From positions 1 to 40,684 of the forward strand of contig CANNKG010000026.1 of NCBI GenBank assembly GCA_947505105.1: 40,684 bases of DNA, in the 5' to 3' direction. The position numbers and the translations under genes are program-made. This document shows, piece after piece, positions 31,098 through 40,684 of the stretch. How positions within the stretch are numbered: position 1 is the first letter of the stretch; each line of letters begins with the position of its first letter. The stretch is from Methylococcaceae bacterium. Its GTDB lineage: Bacteria; Pseudomonadota; Gammaproteobacteria; Methylococcales; Methylomonadaceae. The notes under the pieces are model-generated. The model was not told where the DNA came from, did no database searches, and saw nothing but the letters and a program-made list of their open reading frames with translations.

Positions 31098-32288
31098 TCA
31101 GGCCATTTTGTTGCGACCTCTCAATAAACTTTGCTGGAATTGATTATTGTCCAACCATAGATCACCCGCCAACATTGCGGTAATCTCCTGCTTGACGCGC
31201 TCGTCCCGATCAGCCTCGAAAAACAAGTTATGGACTAAATTGGAGCTGTAAAAGCGCTCGACCATCAAATGCATGCTTTGAAAACCAATTTGATAGATCT
31301 CATCGGTTTTGGCGTGCAAGTCCGGGTCGGCTTCGGTGCCGGTTTGAAAACCTTCATGGAGCCGATCGGCAATTAATTCGGCGGTTTTGAGGGCAAAGAA
31401 GAATCCTGAAGAAAACACCGGATCCAAAAATCCTGAGGCATCGCCGCAACAGGCCAAGCGTTGACCATAGCGGCGACTATTCACATAGCTGAAATCCGCC
31501 TCAATTCGCAAATCCGCCCACAGTTCAGCGCCCTCCAGCAATTCCAGCATGCGCGGTGATGCGTTGATGTAATGATCAAACAATGCTTCACGTTTTAACT
31601 CTGTCGGATATGCTTTCTGGACAATTAAGCCTACGCTTAGACGCTGCTGGGTGAGTGGAATACACCAAATCCAGCCGATATCGGTGAGCAAAATTTCGAT
31701 GTTGCCAGTGGTGAATAATTGTTCGGTTTTGGGTGTGTTCGCCAAGTGATAATGTTTATAGAGCGCAAATTTGCCGAGATTGTCGAGCTTGTTGATCGAT
31801 TGATGGCTTTTGCCGCTTAACGCATTACGCCCTGTGGCATCGATAAAATAACGCCCTTGATAAACCGACTGATCACTATGGACGGTTACGCCCGACTCGT
31901 CACAGTTAAACGTAGTTACTTTTTCGTTTTGCCGCGCAGTTACTCCTTGTGTTGTTGCATTATTGAACAATTTTTCGTCTAGCACCGAACGTTCAACTTG
32001 AAAGGTGCGGTACTTGCCGCGCAACGGAAAATAAATGTGTTTGCCGGACTTTTCATCGATGAAATCTGCTCCGCTTTTGGGTAGATTATTCTGCGCCCAA
32101 TCGATACCGAGTCTTTGCATGATGGGTTCGGCTTTGGGTAGCATCGATTCGCCAATATGAAAGCGTGGATGCTCGCCCTGTTCCAGCAATAATACTTGAT
32201 AGCCGTATTGGGCAAGTAATGTGGCGGCCGTGCTGCCCGCAGGGCCGCCGCCGGCGACGATGATATCGTAATGATTAGGGGTTGGCAT
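31098..32288 (-). CDS. Halogenase-like FAD-dependent oxidoreductase
   Basis: A 396-residue flavoprotein. The chosen start at 32288 (MPTPNHYD) has GAGG about 10 bases upstream and overlaps the preceding gene by 14 bases. Residues 8-22 form the FAD site IIVAGGGPAGSTAATLL; GESMLPKAEP and FLDPVFSSGFFFALK match the family of flavin-dependent halogenases and geranylgeranyl-reductase-like proteins. The segment GWIWCIPL contains the W-x-W-x-I-P pattern described for flavin halogenases, and a Lys follows GESMLP as in them. It is third in an operon with two ketosynthases, so it may tailor a polyketide or fatty-acid-like product. Halogenation is unproven; a desaturase or hydroxylase role is equally possible. 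Confidence 0.75.
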   Translation of the reverse strand: MPTPNHYDIIVAGGGPAGSTAATLLAQYGYQVLLLEQGEHPRFHIGESMLPKAEPIMQRLGIDWAQNNLPKSGADFIDEKSGKHIYFPLRGKYRTFQVERSVLDEKLFNNATTQGVTARQNEKVTTFNCDESGVTVHSDQSVYQGRYFIDATGRNALSGKSHQSINKLDNLGKFALYKHYHLANTPKTEQLFTTGNIEILLTDIGWIWCIPLTQQRLSVGLIVQKAYPTELKREALFDHYINASPRMLELLEGAELWADLRIEADFSYVNSRRYGQRLACCGDASGFLDPVFSSGFFFALKTAELIADRLHEGFQTGTEADPDLHAKTDEIYQIGFQSMHLMVERFYSSNLVHNLFFEADRDERVKQEITAMLAGDLWLDNNQFQQSLLRGRNKMA

Positions 32289-33066
32289 AGGGGGGAGCCT
32301 CAAAGTGGGTACACCAAATGGCACCCTGATTGTTCAAAGGAATTAAGCTGTTGTTGGCAGACCGTGGAGCCGACAATGCACTTAACAATGGGATTGCAGC
32401 GGTCGCGGGAGCTGAATCAACCAATTTCGACCAGGATGGATCAAGGTTTGGCGCTAAATTTGGGTCGGTTGGACGATAAATTTCAGGCCGCGTGAGCGCG
32501 GCTTGTGCCGCGTCGGGTTCGGAGCTGAGAACAAAGGCACAGGCAAAGGCTTGTTCGCCAATCGGCGGGGCCAAGTATTGCGGCCAGCTTTCATCATAGC
32601 AAACCAGCAGCAAGTCGCCCGGCGTAACTTGGAGCTGGGTCCAGGCTTCGAGCAAACCGAGCGCAAAGGTATCATCGATTCCGGCGATCGCCGTGGTGGG
32701 GGCTTGGCATTCATGCAAAATACTCCAGTAACCCGCAGTGGTATTGTGCACGGAGTTATGAAATTGAGTTGGCGATAATAAGGCGTCTGGATCTGGCAGC
32801 AATCGACACAGTGCATCGGTCACCTGAATTTCGCCGCCCAGTGAGGCGAAAACTGATGGTAGCATTTTGGGGTCGACCTGGGCTTGGATGCAGGCGGCAG
32901 TTCCGGCAGTAATCGCTATGCGCGTGGTTAAGCTGGTGCGTCGCCGCATTGCCCCTGGAATCAGGGTGTTGTCGATCGGATTCACCGAGAGTCCGAACGC
33001 ATCGAGTAAATTGAGCTCAGGGCTGCAGGCGCTCGCACTTTTAATATAAATTCGAGAGTTAATCAT
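32275..33066 (-). CDS. Short beta-ketoacyl synthase/chain-length-factor-like protein
   Basis: A protein of 263 residues, with start ATG at 33066 overlapping the ketosynthase stop by 8 bases (ATGATTAA) and AGGA just upstream. It matches the short ketoacyl-synthase-like group (ketoacyl-synt_2): RRRTSLTTRIAITAG near residue 41, FASLGGEIQVTDALCRLL, then LSPTQFHNSVHNTTAGYWSI and LLLVCYDESWP. No catalytic Cys motif of condensing enzymes is seen, and length is about 60% of a full ketosynthase. Such proteins occur in aryl polyene and resorcinol-type loci, as partners of a full ketosynthase. Here the partner is the gene directly upstream. Confidence 0.75.
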   Translation of the reverse strand: MINSRIYIKSASACSPELNLLDAFGLSVNPIDNTLIPGAMRRRTSLTTRIAITAGTAACIQAQVDPKMLPSVFASLGGEIQVTDALCRLLPDPDALLSPTQFHNSVHNTTAGYWSILHECQAPTTAIAGIDDTFALGLLEAWTQLQVTPGDLLLVCYDESWPQYLAPPIGEQAFACAFVLSSEPDAAQAALTRPEIYRPTDPNLAPNLDPSWSKLVDSAPATAAIPLLSALSAPRSANNSLIPLNNQGAIWCTHFEAPPYANP

Positions 33067-34270
33067 GATGTCCTGCAATGATCAAACTGGCGTTGTTGCC
33101 GCCAAAGCCGAAGGAATTGCTCATCACAATATTTAACTTTTGGTTTTCGATAGGGTTTTTAATAACCTGGCAGTTAAATTCCTTGTCCACGTTTTCAAGA
33201 TTGGCGGTTCCGGGAATAAATTGATGTTGTAACGCCAGCAGGGCAATAACGGCTTCGAGTGCACCAGCCGCTCCCAGGGTATGACCGGTCAAGCTTTTGG
33301 TACCGCTGCAGCGCACTTCGTTGAATACTTGATAAACCGCCAACGCTTCGACCTGATCGTTGATTCGGGTGCCAGTGGCGTGAAGATTTAGATAATCGAT
33401 ATCTCCTGCTTCAAGTCCAGCAAATTGCAAGGCTTTGTTCATGGCCAGCATCGCTCCTCGGCCTTCCGGGTGCGGTGAGCTCATGTGATAGGCGTCGGAA
33501 GATTCACCGACGGCCAATAATTGTGCTTTGGTCGAAGTGGTTTCTGAACTTCTTTCGAGAACCAGTAGTGCGCCAGCCTCCCCTATATTAATGCCGCAAC
33601 GTTGTTGATCCATCGGTTGACATTGAGTGGCCGACAGCAAATCCAGACTTTTAAAACCACGTAAAGTCAGACGGCATAAAGTATCAACACCTCCAACCAA
33701 TACCGCGTCGCACACTCCACTCACGATCAAGCGTTGTCCGGCGGCAATTGCTTTGGCGCTGGATGAGCAAGCCGTCGATATCGCATAGCAGGGTCCCTCT
33801 AAACCGAGTTCTTTTTGCAGAAAGCGCGCGGTTGCCTGATAGGCATGACGAGTGACGAAATTGAAATCATCGGGCATTTTGTGCTGAACCAGAAATTTGG
33901 CATAGGCCGCTTCGCTTTCATAGAGTCCCGAAGTGCTGGTGCCCAGGACTACCCCAATTCGATCGACGCCATAGCGGGATTTTGACTGCTCTATGGCGCT
34001 ACGCACTCCGTCTTCAGGATGATTCAATGCCGCGAGCGCTACTTGAGCATTTCGACTTTCATAAACCTTTAAGTCTTTGGAAATACTTGGTAACGGGGTA
34101 TAAATTTCCCCCACTTGAGTTATAAACGGAATTTCAAATACGGCCAAAGGTGCAAGGCTTGAACGATTACCGCGTAATGCTTGATACAGCGCAGCATTGC
34201 CATAGCCGCAATGACTGATTGCGGAGTAGGCGCTGATCGTGACGGGCTTAAATGCTTGGGAATTTGCCAT
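33059..34270 (-). CDS. Beta-ketoacyl-ACP synthase, FabF type
   Basis: A 403-residue condensing enzyme. The active-site Cys is in AISTACSSSAKAIAAG (near residue 166), the first His in LNLHATGTRINDQVE and the second in LTGHTLGAAGALE, so the Cys-His-His triad is complete. SFGFGGNNASLI closes the fold as in FabF/KASII. It joins a malonyl-ACP unit to a growing acyl chain with loss of CO2. It is first of the minus-strand operon with the short synthase and the flavoprotein. No acyl carrier protein, ketoreductase or dehydratase lies beside it, so those would come from elsewhere. Confidence 0.9.
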   Translation of the reverse strand: MANSQAFKPVTISAYSAISHCGYGNAALYQALRGNRSSLAPLAVFEIPFITQVGEIYTPLPSISKDLKVYESRNAQVALAALNHPEDGVRSAIEQSKSRYGVDRIGVVLGTSTSGLYESEAAYAKFLVQHKMPDDFNFVTRHAYQATARFLQKELGLEGPCYAISTACSSSAKAIAAGQRLIVSGVCDAVLVGGVDTLCRLTLRGFKSLDLLSATQCQPMDQQRCGINIGEAGALLVLERSSETTSTKAQLLAVGESSDAYHMSSPHPEGRGAMLAMNKALQFAGLEAGDIDYLNLHATGTRINDQVEALAVYQVFNEVRCSGTKSLTGHTLGAAGALEAVIALLALQHQFIPGTANLENVDKEFNCQVIKNPIENQKLNIVMSNSFGFGGNNASLIIAGHHD

Positions 34271-39177: not shown

Positions 39178-40476
39178 ATGAATCAAGAAATTGCTGAAAC
39201 ATTTATTCGTTTTTTCGCTCAGAAGTATTTTTCACATTTGTTCCCGCAAGAAATTCTCGATATTCTTCAGACAGTACCTGATACTTCGAATGAGTCCCTT
39301 GAGGTAAAGGCGTTATTGGATAAATGGGACAGTAAAATTTCGATTCAGTCACATTGGGAAGGAGTCCTTGAAGACTACCGATCCGATAGGGAGTTGGCTT
39401 TATTACAGTTATATAAGCGTGGCTTGTTTAATGACTGCCAATTGCATTTTCAATATGAGGACAATGGTCAGAAGGAATGCATTTTTAATCCATTTGGTTT
39501 AGTGATACGAAATGAAAATTTCTTTTTCGTGGGATGTTTTGACAATAATCGTGAGCCGATGTTGCTGAGCCTTGAAAAAATTATCAACATTAAATTGCTT
39601 GATTCTAAAGCCATAGCCTCAGAGTCGGATTTTCATTTAGCTAATTATGCCGAAACCTATCTCAATCATCCGGTCTCTCCTGAAATCATTGAAACCTTGA
39701 TAGTGGAGTTTCCGAAAAAAGCTTACTTCTATGTAAAATCACATCCTATTAAATGTGAACAACTAACCATTACCGAGCCACAAGATACTCCCGGTCATTT
39801 TCTTCTTGAAGCGAAAAATGTTGCAAATACCATACGTTTACATCAGTGGTTCTCCGGTTTTCATGATGATGCTCAAATATTGTCGCCAGTGTATCTGCGC
39901 CGATTAATCAATCGCTCCTACATTGATCAATTAACCAATTTATATAATCGAAAGGCGTTTGATCGATTAGGGCATCGGGAAATTGAACAGAGTCTTAGAA
40001 ATCAAGAGCATATTTTTTCATTATTAATCATGGATATTGATCATTTCAAAACTATTAATGACCTTCACGGCCATAATTTCGGTGATGATGTGCTGATAAA
40101 AGTATCTGAGTGTTTCCGTGACTACGACGCGATTCGTTACGGCGGTGAAGAATTTGTCGTGCTACTTTCAAATACGGGAGCAGAAAACGCTCAAAAAGCA
40201 GCCGAGCGTATTCGTAACAACATAGCGGAACTTTTATTAAAAAATGAGACTGGACAGAGGGTGCCTATTACCATCAGTATCGGTATTGCGGAATTTCCTC
40301 GGCATTTACCTAAAAAGGATCAGCAGGCGCTGGAAAATCTTGGAAAGACCAAATTAACTGACAAAACTAAAAATGGCTTAATGATGGCAATTACCGAACA
40401 GGCAGACAAAGCGCTTTACTATGCCAAGACCGCTGGTCGCAACCAAAGTGCTATATTCCAAGACAGTATTGCTTAA
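39178..40476 (+). CDS. Diguanylate cyclase with WYL and WCX-like N-terminal domains
   Basis: A soluble 432-residue protein. The C-terminal GGDEF domain (about 255-432) has LIMDIDHFKTINDLHGHNFG, YGGEEFVVLL (GGEEF at 322-326) and the end ADKALYYAKTAGRN, so it should make c-di-GMP. RDYD (314-317) resembles the R-x-x-D inhibitory site but is one residue closer to GGEEF than usual. There is a ~20-residue insert before the last helix. The N-terminal half is not a PAS or GAF: residues about 75-160 (FNPFGLVIRNENFFFVGCFD, LLSLEKIINIKLLD) match the WYL fold and about 165-240 (VEFPKKAYFYVKS to WFSGFHDDAQILSPVYLRRL) match its C-terminal extension. No helix-turn-helix precedes it. It is not seen in an operon. 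Confidence 0.8.
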   Translation: MNQEIAETFIRFFAQKYFSHLFPQEILDILQTVPDTSNESLEVKALLDKWDSKISIQSHWEGVLEDYRSDRELALLQLYKRGLFNDCQLHFQYEDNGQKECIFNPFGLVIRNENFFFVGCFDNNREPMLLSLEKIINIKLLDSKAIASESDFHLANYAETYLNHPVSPEIIETLIVEFPKKAYFYVKSHPIKCEQLTITEPQDTPGHFLLEAKNVANTIRLHQWFSGFHDDAQILSPVYLRRLINRSYIDQLTNLYNRKAFDRLGHREIEQSLRNQEHIFSLLIMDIDHFKTINDLHGHNFGDDVLIKVSECFRDYDAIRYGGEEFVVLLSNTGAENAQKAAERIRNNIAELLLKNETGQRVPITISIGIAEFPRHLPKKDQQALENLGKTKLTDKTKNGLMMAITEQADKALYYAKTAGRNQSAIFQDSIA

Positions 40477-40517: not shown

Positions 40518-40545
40518 TTGATAAACGTCAAATCTGCTATATAAT
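40518..40545 (+). promoter_or_regulatory. Strong sigma-70 promoter
   Basis: TTGATA (40518-40523), 16-base spacer, TATAAT (40540-40545). It lies 42 bases after the GGDEF gene and points right. The transcribed bases 40552-40656 contain no convincing open reading frame. Confidence 0.6.
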
Positions 40546-40656
40546 GCGCAGCTCACTAACGCTTGAGTCCGAAGTTGATCCGGTAAAGTAGATGAGTGGG
40601 GTGGCTGGTGTATTCTGAATGTAATAAGAAGTGCATTAAAATTCAGAAAAAACGAG

Positions 40657-40684
40657 TTGACAGTTTGCCGGATAGAGTTATAAT
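40657..40684 (+). promoter_or_regulatory. Consensus sigma-70 promoter at window edge
   Basis: TTGACA (40657-40662), 16-base spacer, TATAAT (40679-40684), both boxes perfect. The transcription start would be just outside the window. A promoter of this quality is typical of stable-RNA genes, so a tRNA or rRNA gene may follow. Confidence 0.7.

Follow-up and report, generated by a model that had tools for sequence, protein, structure and literature searches.

The window, by which we mean the whole 40,684-nucleotide stretch of Methylococcaceae DNA that was analysed, carries towards its right end a gene for a 432-residue protein in which a WYL domain and a WCX domain are followed by a GGDEF domain. 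The gene starts 167 bp past an efflux operon of MacB-type ABC, HlyD and outer-membrane components, and beyond it the contig runs on for about 200 bases. Nine other proteins of the window, all encoded upstream and including those of the efflux operon, were scanned, and no defence-like set was found among them. At the contig end, the stretch 40518-40684 holds two sigma-70-like sites that are strong (11 and 12 of 12 matches) and possibly represent the promoter of a stable RNA, in a repeat at which the assembly broke off; the scan gave five such sites in total, which is no more than chance (5.6). Elsewhere in the window, on the minus strand at 31098-34270, ketosynthase and tryptophan-halogenase-like genes lie in a row and may form a polyketide or aryl-polyene-like cluster. 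The features of the gene are as follows.

39178-40476, plus strand: WYL-WCX-GGDEF gene, 432 aa (open reading frame with ATG start; Pfam; family of copies)
39184-39330, plus strand: predicted three-helix bundle, residues 3-51, counterpart of the DriD three-helix bundle (predicted helices; VIA alignment to DriD)
39385-39609, plus strand: WYL domain (Sm-like barrel), residues 70-144 (PF13280 at 76-139; five strands; Foldseek and VIA)
39520-39528, plus strand: position of the WYL triad, here FFF, residues 115-117 (alignment with 24 ordinary WYL proteins)
39556-39579, plus strand: barrel loop, residues 127-134 (alignments: first position no longer basic, Lys in place of the second Arg, Pro127 throughout the 13 members)
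39637-39912, plus strand: WCX domain (ferredoxin-like), residues 154-245 (PF25583 at 176-245; 11 of 11 members; strand-helix order in models)
39913-40455, plus strand: GGDEF domain, residues 246-426 (PF00990, E=3.1e-35; Z 21.4 to the DosC GGDEF domain)
40117-40128, plus strand: RxxD motif, residues 314-317, four residues ahead of GGEEF (motif reading; spacing 5 in 30 of 30 controls)
40141-40155, plus strand: GGEEF active-site motif, residues 322-326 (translation of the reading frame; family alignment)
40300-40377, plus strand: extra stretch ahead of the last helix, approximately residues 375-400 (SIG to AD distance; a family trait)

When the protein was compared with Pfam using hmmscan, PF00990 (GGDEF) matched residues 248-376 with an E-value of 3.1e-35 and 121.8 bits against a cut-off of 23.8, and a general GGDEF model was the sole NCBIfam model above its cut-off. 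The domains ahead of it score lower. PF13280 (WYL) falls just below its 21.8-bit cut-off in hmmscan (20.4 bits, E=5e-4, residues 76-139) and above it in the genome search (24.5 bits), while PF25583 (WCX) reaches 19.2 bits (E=1.6e-3, residues 176-245) against a cut-off of 23.9; the PADLOC WYL model covers residues 74-244 with an E-value of 9.8e-16. Eleven members of the family described below were also compared with Pfam, and at E≤0.5 GGDEF and WCX are matched in all 11 and WYL in 10, with best E-values of 2.7e-7 for WYL and 6.7e-7 for WCX; the PF13280 match expected from the sequence-only reading is weak in the window protein and stronger in the best of the other members. Ahead of the WYL domain there is no helix-turn-helix match at E≤1 in Pfam, the first residues instead forming a three-helix bundle, and searching the sequences of the PDB with the N-terminal region returned just two ferritin matches (E-values 0.56 and 0.79). 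Among the matches listed for ordinary WYL loci, at least 85 residues precede the WYL match in 52 of 55, a GGDEF motif occurs in none of the 55, and all stop 12-52 residues past the match.

Predicted structures agree with this domain order. In the full-length model (pLDDT 75.7, pTM 0.46) the GGDEF fold is visible, and a model of residues 1-244 (pLDDT 72.3, pTM 0.60) places N-terminal helices at residues 3-21, 24-32 and 37-53, with ten-residue pLDDT means of 44-62. The Sm-like barrel on which the WYL assignment depended, sought in residues 75-160, is present in the models as five strands at residues 87-144, and a predicted strand-helix-strand-strand-helix-strand series at residues 165-236 corresponds to the ferredoxin-like order that follows WYL. 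Searching the PDB with the 1-244 model using Foldseek gave 32 matches at E≤1e-3, of which 30 are chains of DriD, PafBC, BrxR and CapW and the other two belong to 6oaw, titled 'CRISPR Cas-related protein'. VIA aligned the same model to PafBC with Z 13.2 (rmsd 9.6, 142 residues aligned) and to DriD residues 78-313 with Z 12.5 (rmsd 6.4, 202 aligned), Sm and Hfq proteins ranking next at Z about 6-8. A false WYL call was entertained and rejected in view of the family members at 2.7e-7, the PADLOC match and the fold matches, of which 30 of 32 are to WYL regulators.

The layout of DriD, as given in the accessible part of its description, is a wHTH at residues 1-70, a three-helix bundle at 79-133, WYL at 134-245 and WCX, the dimer domain, at 246-327, with the WYL domain binding ssDNA (PMC12340889). 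The N-terminal 70 or so residues of the window protein align with the DriD three-helix bundle, so that the winged helix alone is missing. The family thus shares with the HTH-3HB-WYL-WCX regulators DriD and PafBC the succession of WYL and WCX and the same fold, and with DriD the helical bundle too, but differs from both in having no winged helix in front and a catalytic GGDEF domain behind. The architecture of helical bundle, WYL barrel and WCX running directly into GGDEF is confirmed, bearing out by Pfam, PADLOC, models and fold matches what had been read from the letters, and the window protein is a DriD-type core minus its wHTH with a GGDEF domain appended C-terminally.

How many WYL-GGDEF proteins exist, and in which lineages, was a question raised by the sequence-only reading. 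Within the order, 18 copies, some of them broken, are present in 12 of 311 genomes, while the search of the other 299 gave no copy. The 15 copies with a whole N-terminal part score at least 307 bits in the order search and ordinary WYL proteins no more than 95; the remaining three, G1026:C78 (at a contig end), G1026:C226 and G967 (with four stops), are pieces of lower score and are included by score only. No further strong match was found in samples of the class (369 genomes) or the phylum (398 genomes), samples which overlap with each other and with that of the order in their members. A scan for close relatives gave as named carriers Methylobacter sp., Candidatus Methylobacter titanis and other Methylococcaceae, which makes a methane oxidiser of that group the most likely source of the window; a scan of named genomes with the window sequence as single query confirmed no relative. 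Across these samples and scans the arrangement is confined to one family, patchily distributed among methane oxidisers. A one-off fusion or an assembly artefact was rejected in view of its presence in 12 genomes of the order. A viral or plasmid origin is not supported; there was no viral-contig or phage match, and the two plasmid matches are weak and annotated only as WYL domain-containing.

The genome from which the window comes has four copies, the window copy C26 and three paralogues that are 48 % (C266), 43 % (C106) and 40 % (C1) identical to it. A tree of the family has two main clades, the window copy sitting with L101, L102 and L103, and both domains are present in 13 aligned sequences, one of which is cut short inside GGDEF. 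Whole-gene NG86 estimates of dN/dS, with dS near saturation, are 0.057 for L101/L103, 0.093 for L104/L107 and 0.124 for L106/L107; the two halves of the gene give 0.092 and 0.095 for L104/L107 and 0.086 and 0.177 for L106/L107. For L100 against the truncated L116, which has a stop at codon 186 and, to judge by its coordinates, is probably one record with G968, the value is 0.229 (185 codons). Purifying selection has thus acted on the fusion, and some copies were lost later. The pair C106/C1, one broken and one dead, also has a dN/dS of 0.096, so a low value alone is no proof of present activity. C1 (L041:3762-5093) retains an intact 443-aa frame with the GGDEF site lost (SEQKF in its place, and ND changed to TT), and is possibly a pure receptor or a decaying copy. 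In C106 the GGEEF motif is intact and a short insertion close to the end of the domain disrupts the reading frame, possibly through an assembly error. With one paralogue dead and another frame-broken in the same genome, the function is dispensable.

The metal, guanine and phosphate residues of the family GGDEF domains were read with PleD as the reference. The window copy has D286, K291, N294, D303, GGEEF, K417 and R421. All 13 members have the metal aspartate, the RxxD motif and the lysine that corresponds to PleD K332; 12 have GGEEF and the asparagine and aspartate equivalent to N335 and D344; and 11 have the late lysine and arginine, one member ending before them; R258 of the GGDEF NR motif is alanine in 4 of 13. 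The claim of a complete domain with GGEEF at residues 322-326 and intact motifs holds, given the PF00990 match and the presence of all the catalytic residues tested. In its fold and catalytic residues the family resembles PleD, WspR, DosC and DgcR; it differs from them in its WYL-WCX input, in an RxxD motif one residue nearer the active site in 10 of 13 members, and in a longer segment ahead of the last helix. Inputs of such sensor-GGDEF cyclases include PAS, GAF, REC, globin and phytochrome domains.

An RxxD motif five residues ahead of GGDEF is the canonical I-site, common though not obligatory. The spacing is five in all 30 GGDEF motifs of the controls (29 loci of relatives) but four in 10 of the 13 family members, including the window copy, with L104, L106 and L107 keeping five; RxxD was thus rightly described as one residue too near GGEEF. 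The further suggestion, that product inhibition may be lost, is not established, since R and D are present in 13 of 13 members, the dead copy included; judged from the motifs, an altered rather than absent inhibitory site and a lost product inhibition are equally possible. The odd insert noticed ahead of the last helix is also real, the distance from SIG to AD being 39 residues in the window copy and 35-39 in the 12 members, out of 13, that allow the measurement, against 16-24 in 17 of 30 controls, the other 13 of which were not measurable.

The WYL barrel of the family was aligned with 24 ordinary WYL proteins chosen from the WYL loci of the own-genome and the order and class searches. The tyrosine position is Y in all 24 of these but F in eight, L in three, Y in one and M in one of the 13 family members. 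At the first loop position 18 of the 24 ordinary proteins, and none of the 13 members, have R or K; at the second, all 24 ordinary proteins have R and all 13 members K; and proline at position 127 is found in 13 of 13 members against 1 of 24. In the window protein the W-Y-L triplet reads FFF, and M128 and K134 stand at the loop-arginine positions. A 12-row alignment shows eight invariant barrel residues, Y93, F103, G107, R111, G119, P127, L130 and K134, of which Y93, G107 and R111 are frequent in ordinary WYL proteins too. The family therefore differs from ordinary WYL regulators in mostly lacking the WYL tyrosine and in the entire loss of the first basic residue of the loop. The published text available on PafBC records that viability falls to the knockout level when, in each of its two WYL domains, either the tyrosine or the pair of arginines is changed to alanine (PMC6789036), and that on the superfamily describes the W-Y-L letters as weakly conserved and predicts four basic residues to line the groove (PMC4012209).

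The ligand suggested at the outset, single-stranded DNA or a nucleotide, does not find support in these alignments. With the tyrosine and the first loop arginine gone, the usual single-stranded nucleic acid is less likely as the ligand; the barrel is kept and its ligand has probably changed, and our guess would be a smaller anion, bound by Lys134 and Arg111. A barrel that senses single-stranded DNA, RNA or another nucleotide, and so couples c-di-GMP to DNA damage or infection, would fit the similarity in fold to the ssDNA-bound structures of DriD and CapW, the partial positive character that R111 and K134 retain, and the nuclease, Sir2 or dynamin-like genes near some copies; the replacement of key ligand residues in nearly all members, and the lack of a defence-like set among the nine scanned proteins upstream of the window gene, make us regard it as quite doubtful. 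The same loss of the usual ligand residues could mean that the WYL-WCX part binds no ligand and is a mere dimer clamp on a cyclase that is constitutively on and controlled by transcription or turnover, a reading in keeping with the matching of WCX, the dimer domain in DriD, in 11 of 11 members. We consider this unlikely if worth keeping in mind, as a barrel so well kept, with its eight invariant residues, seems more than a bare clamp would need. It is also conceivable that the barrel binds c-di-GMP itself, so that feedback by the product would compensate for the displaced RxxD motif of 10 of 13 members; a WYL transcription factor perceiving c-di-GMP has been reported in Lactiplantibacillus plantarum, to judge by the title of the paper, yet the three members with canonical spacing share the same WYL changes, and such feedback seems improbable.

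We favour, at a probability of roughly 0.55, the reading that the window protein is a ligand-gated diguanylate cyclase with a dimeric WYL-WCX sensor. By analogy with DriD, the WYL-WCX cores would pair; binding of an effector in the altered WYL barrel would change this pairing; and the changed pairing would set whether two GGDEF domains meet and join two GTP into c-di-GMP. In favour of this reading are the domains recognised by profile and fold, the catalytic residues, the low dN/dS values, the union of both domains in the 13 aligned sequences against none of 55 ordinary WYL loci with a GGDEF motif, the ssDNA-binding WYL and dimerising WCX of DriD, the invariant R111 and K134, and the altered pocket. 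The sensor core runs into the GGDEF domain with hardly any linker, and the stretch with pLDDT below 50 in the full-length model, residues 245-256, is exactly the junction through which the signal would have to pass, which counts against the proposed mechanism as modelled. The sub-cut-off WYL and WCX scores, the dead and broken copies, the alanine at R258 in 4 of 13 members and the absence of the gene from 299 of 311 genomes also count against a gated cyclase.

The neighbourhoods of the other copies are varied. At L104 (784-9477) four genes for dynamin-like or related GTPases and one for a 317-aa protein lie directly upstream, the last GTPase gene being 12 bp away, and integrase, Prim-Pol and DUF927 genes lie downstream; at L106 there are GTPases upstream of the WYL-GGDEF gene, and C106 has a dynamin-like protein and a PP2C-like phosphatase as neighbours. 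Two Sir2 genes, PD-(D/E)XK nucleases and GmrSD are found at L107 and a NERD gene at C266, while at L102 the WYL-GGDEF gene overlaps a periplasmic-binding-protein gene, and L101 and L103 have a run of neighbours in common. In G1010 an ORF that is Cas1-like by eye (L151:7554-8519) lies 0.9 kb upstream of the WYL-GGDEF gene. Of the 18 copies, 5 have a Dynamin_N match no more than about 10 kb away, with G109 and G1026 near-duplicates, and a rough, post hoc Poisson estimate for dynamin near 3 of 12 loci is p ~0.005, from 45 matches, some of them weak, in 8 genomes (34 Mb). We regard the dynamin link as a lead; papers found on dynamin, c-di-GMP and anti-phage functions looked unrelated by their titles.

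A second recurrent neighbour, first met near three WYL-GGDEF genes, is a protein of 170-223 aa that we call protein X (copies at L040:10079-10747, L104:10827-11393, L107:13909-14418 and L124:4565-5080), which has no Pfam match in the copies scanned. It occurs in 6 of 201 genomes of the order and in one of four further ones, nine copies in all, six of which are within 5 kb of a WYL gene; the other three lie on contigs of 4-7 kb, so that six of nine is an incomplete as well as an uncontrolled count. It lies beside WYL-GGDEF genes at G000:C106, G109:C90, G109:C60 and G1026:C103, and beside ordinary WYL regulators in G126 and G165. At the G126 locus (L124:2092-9392) an ordinary WYL-WCX gene is followed by Fic, Sir2, X, Hen1 and Pnkp genes, possibly an RNA-repair or conflict island; a literature search found no paper uniting RNA repair, WYL, Hen1 and Sir2. 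Since X accompanies both kinds of gene, there are hints that WYL-GGDEF can stand in for a WYL regulator in the same circuits. One could go further and suppose that in some lineages a WYL-gated cyclase together with dynamin-like GTPases, or with X, Sir2 and PP2C, serves a conflict system as the sensor that makes its messenger, raising c-di-GMP upon infection or upon membrane or nucleic-acid damage and replacing the ordinary WYL regulator next to X, but this we offer as speculation with rather little likelihood.

Fusions of WYL domains with enzymes are already known. The part of the defence-system survey available to us lists WYL fused to Cas3, an exoRNase, Mrr, HNH, a helicase and an AbiGII-like nucleotidyltransferase (Makarova 2014, PMC4012209); the present family resembles those fusions in uniting sensor and enzyme in one polypeptide, and differs in that its enzyme makes a second messenger, the term GGDEF being absent from the main text of that article. 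It is likewise absent from the main text of a PafBC survey of 15,079 WYL entries, which shows only classes of at least 100 sequences (PMC6789036). No WYL-GGDEF protein was found described in searchable papers, most subscription papers and supplements lying outside the search, and no family-specific NCBIfam model scores above its cut-off, in line with the initial impression that there was no described example. As far as the literature was searchable, then, WYL-WCX-GGDEF is undescribed as a family.

WYL is known mainly as a transcription switch in DNA-damage and defence regulation, and c-di-GMP signalling gains here a type of input for which no report was found. With the WYL core wired to an enzyme, a simple assay of c-di-GMP could report on the ligand of that core, and the family supplies its own natural controls in the form of an intact active site, a dead paralogue and two I-site spacings.
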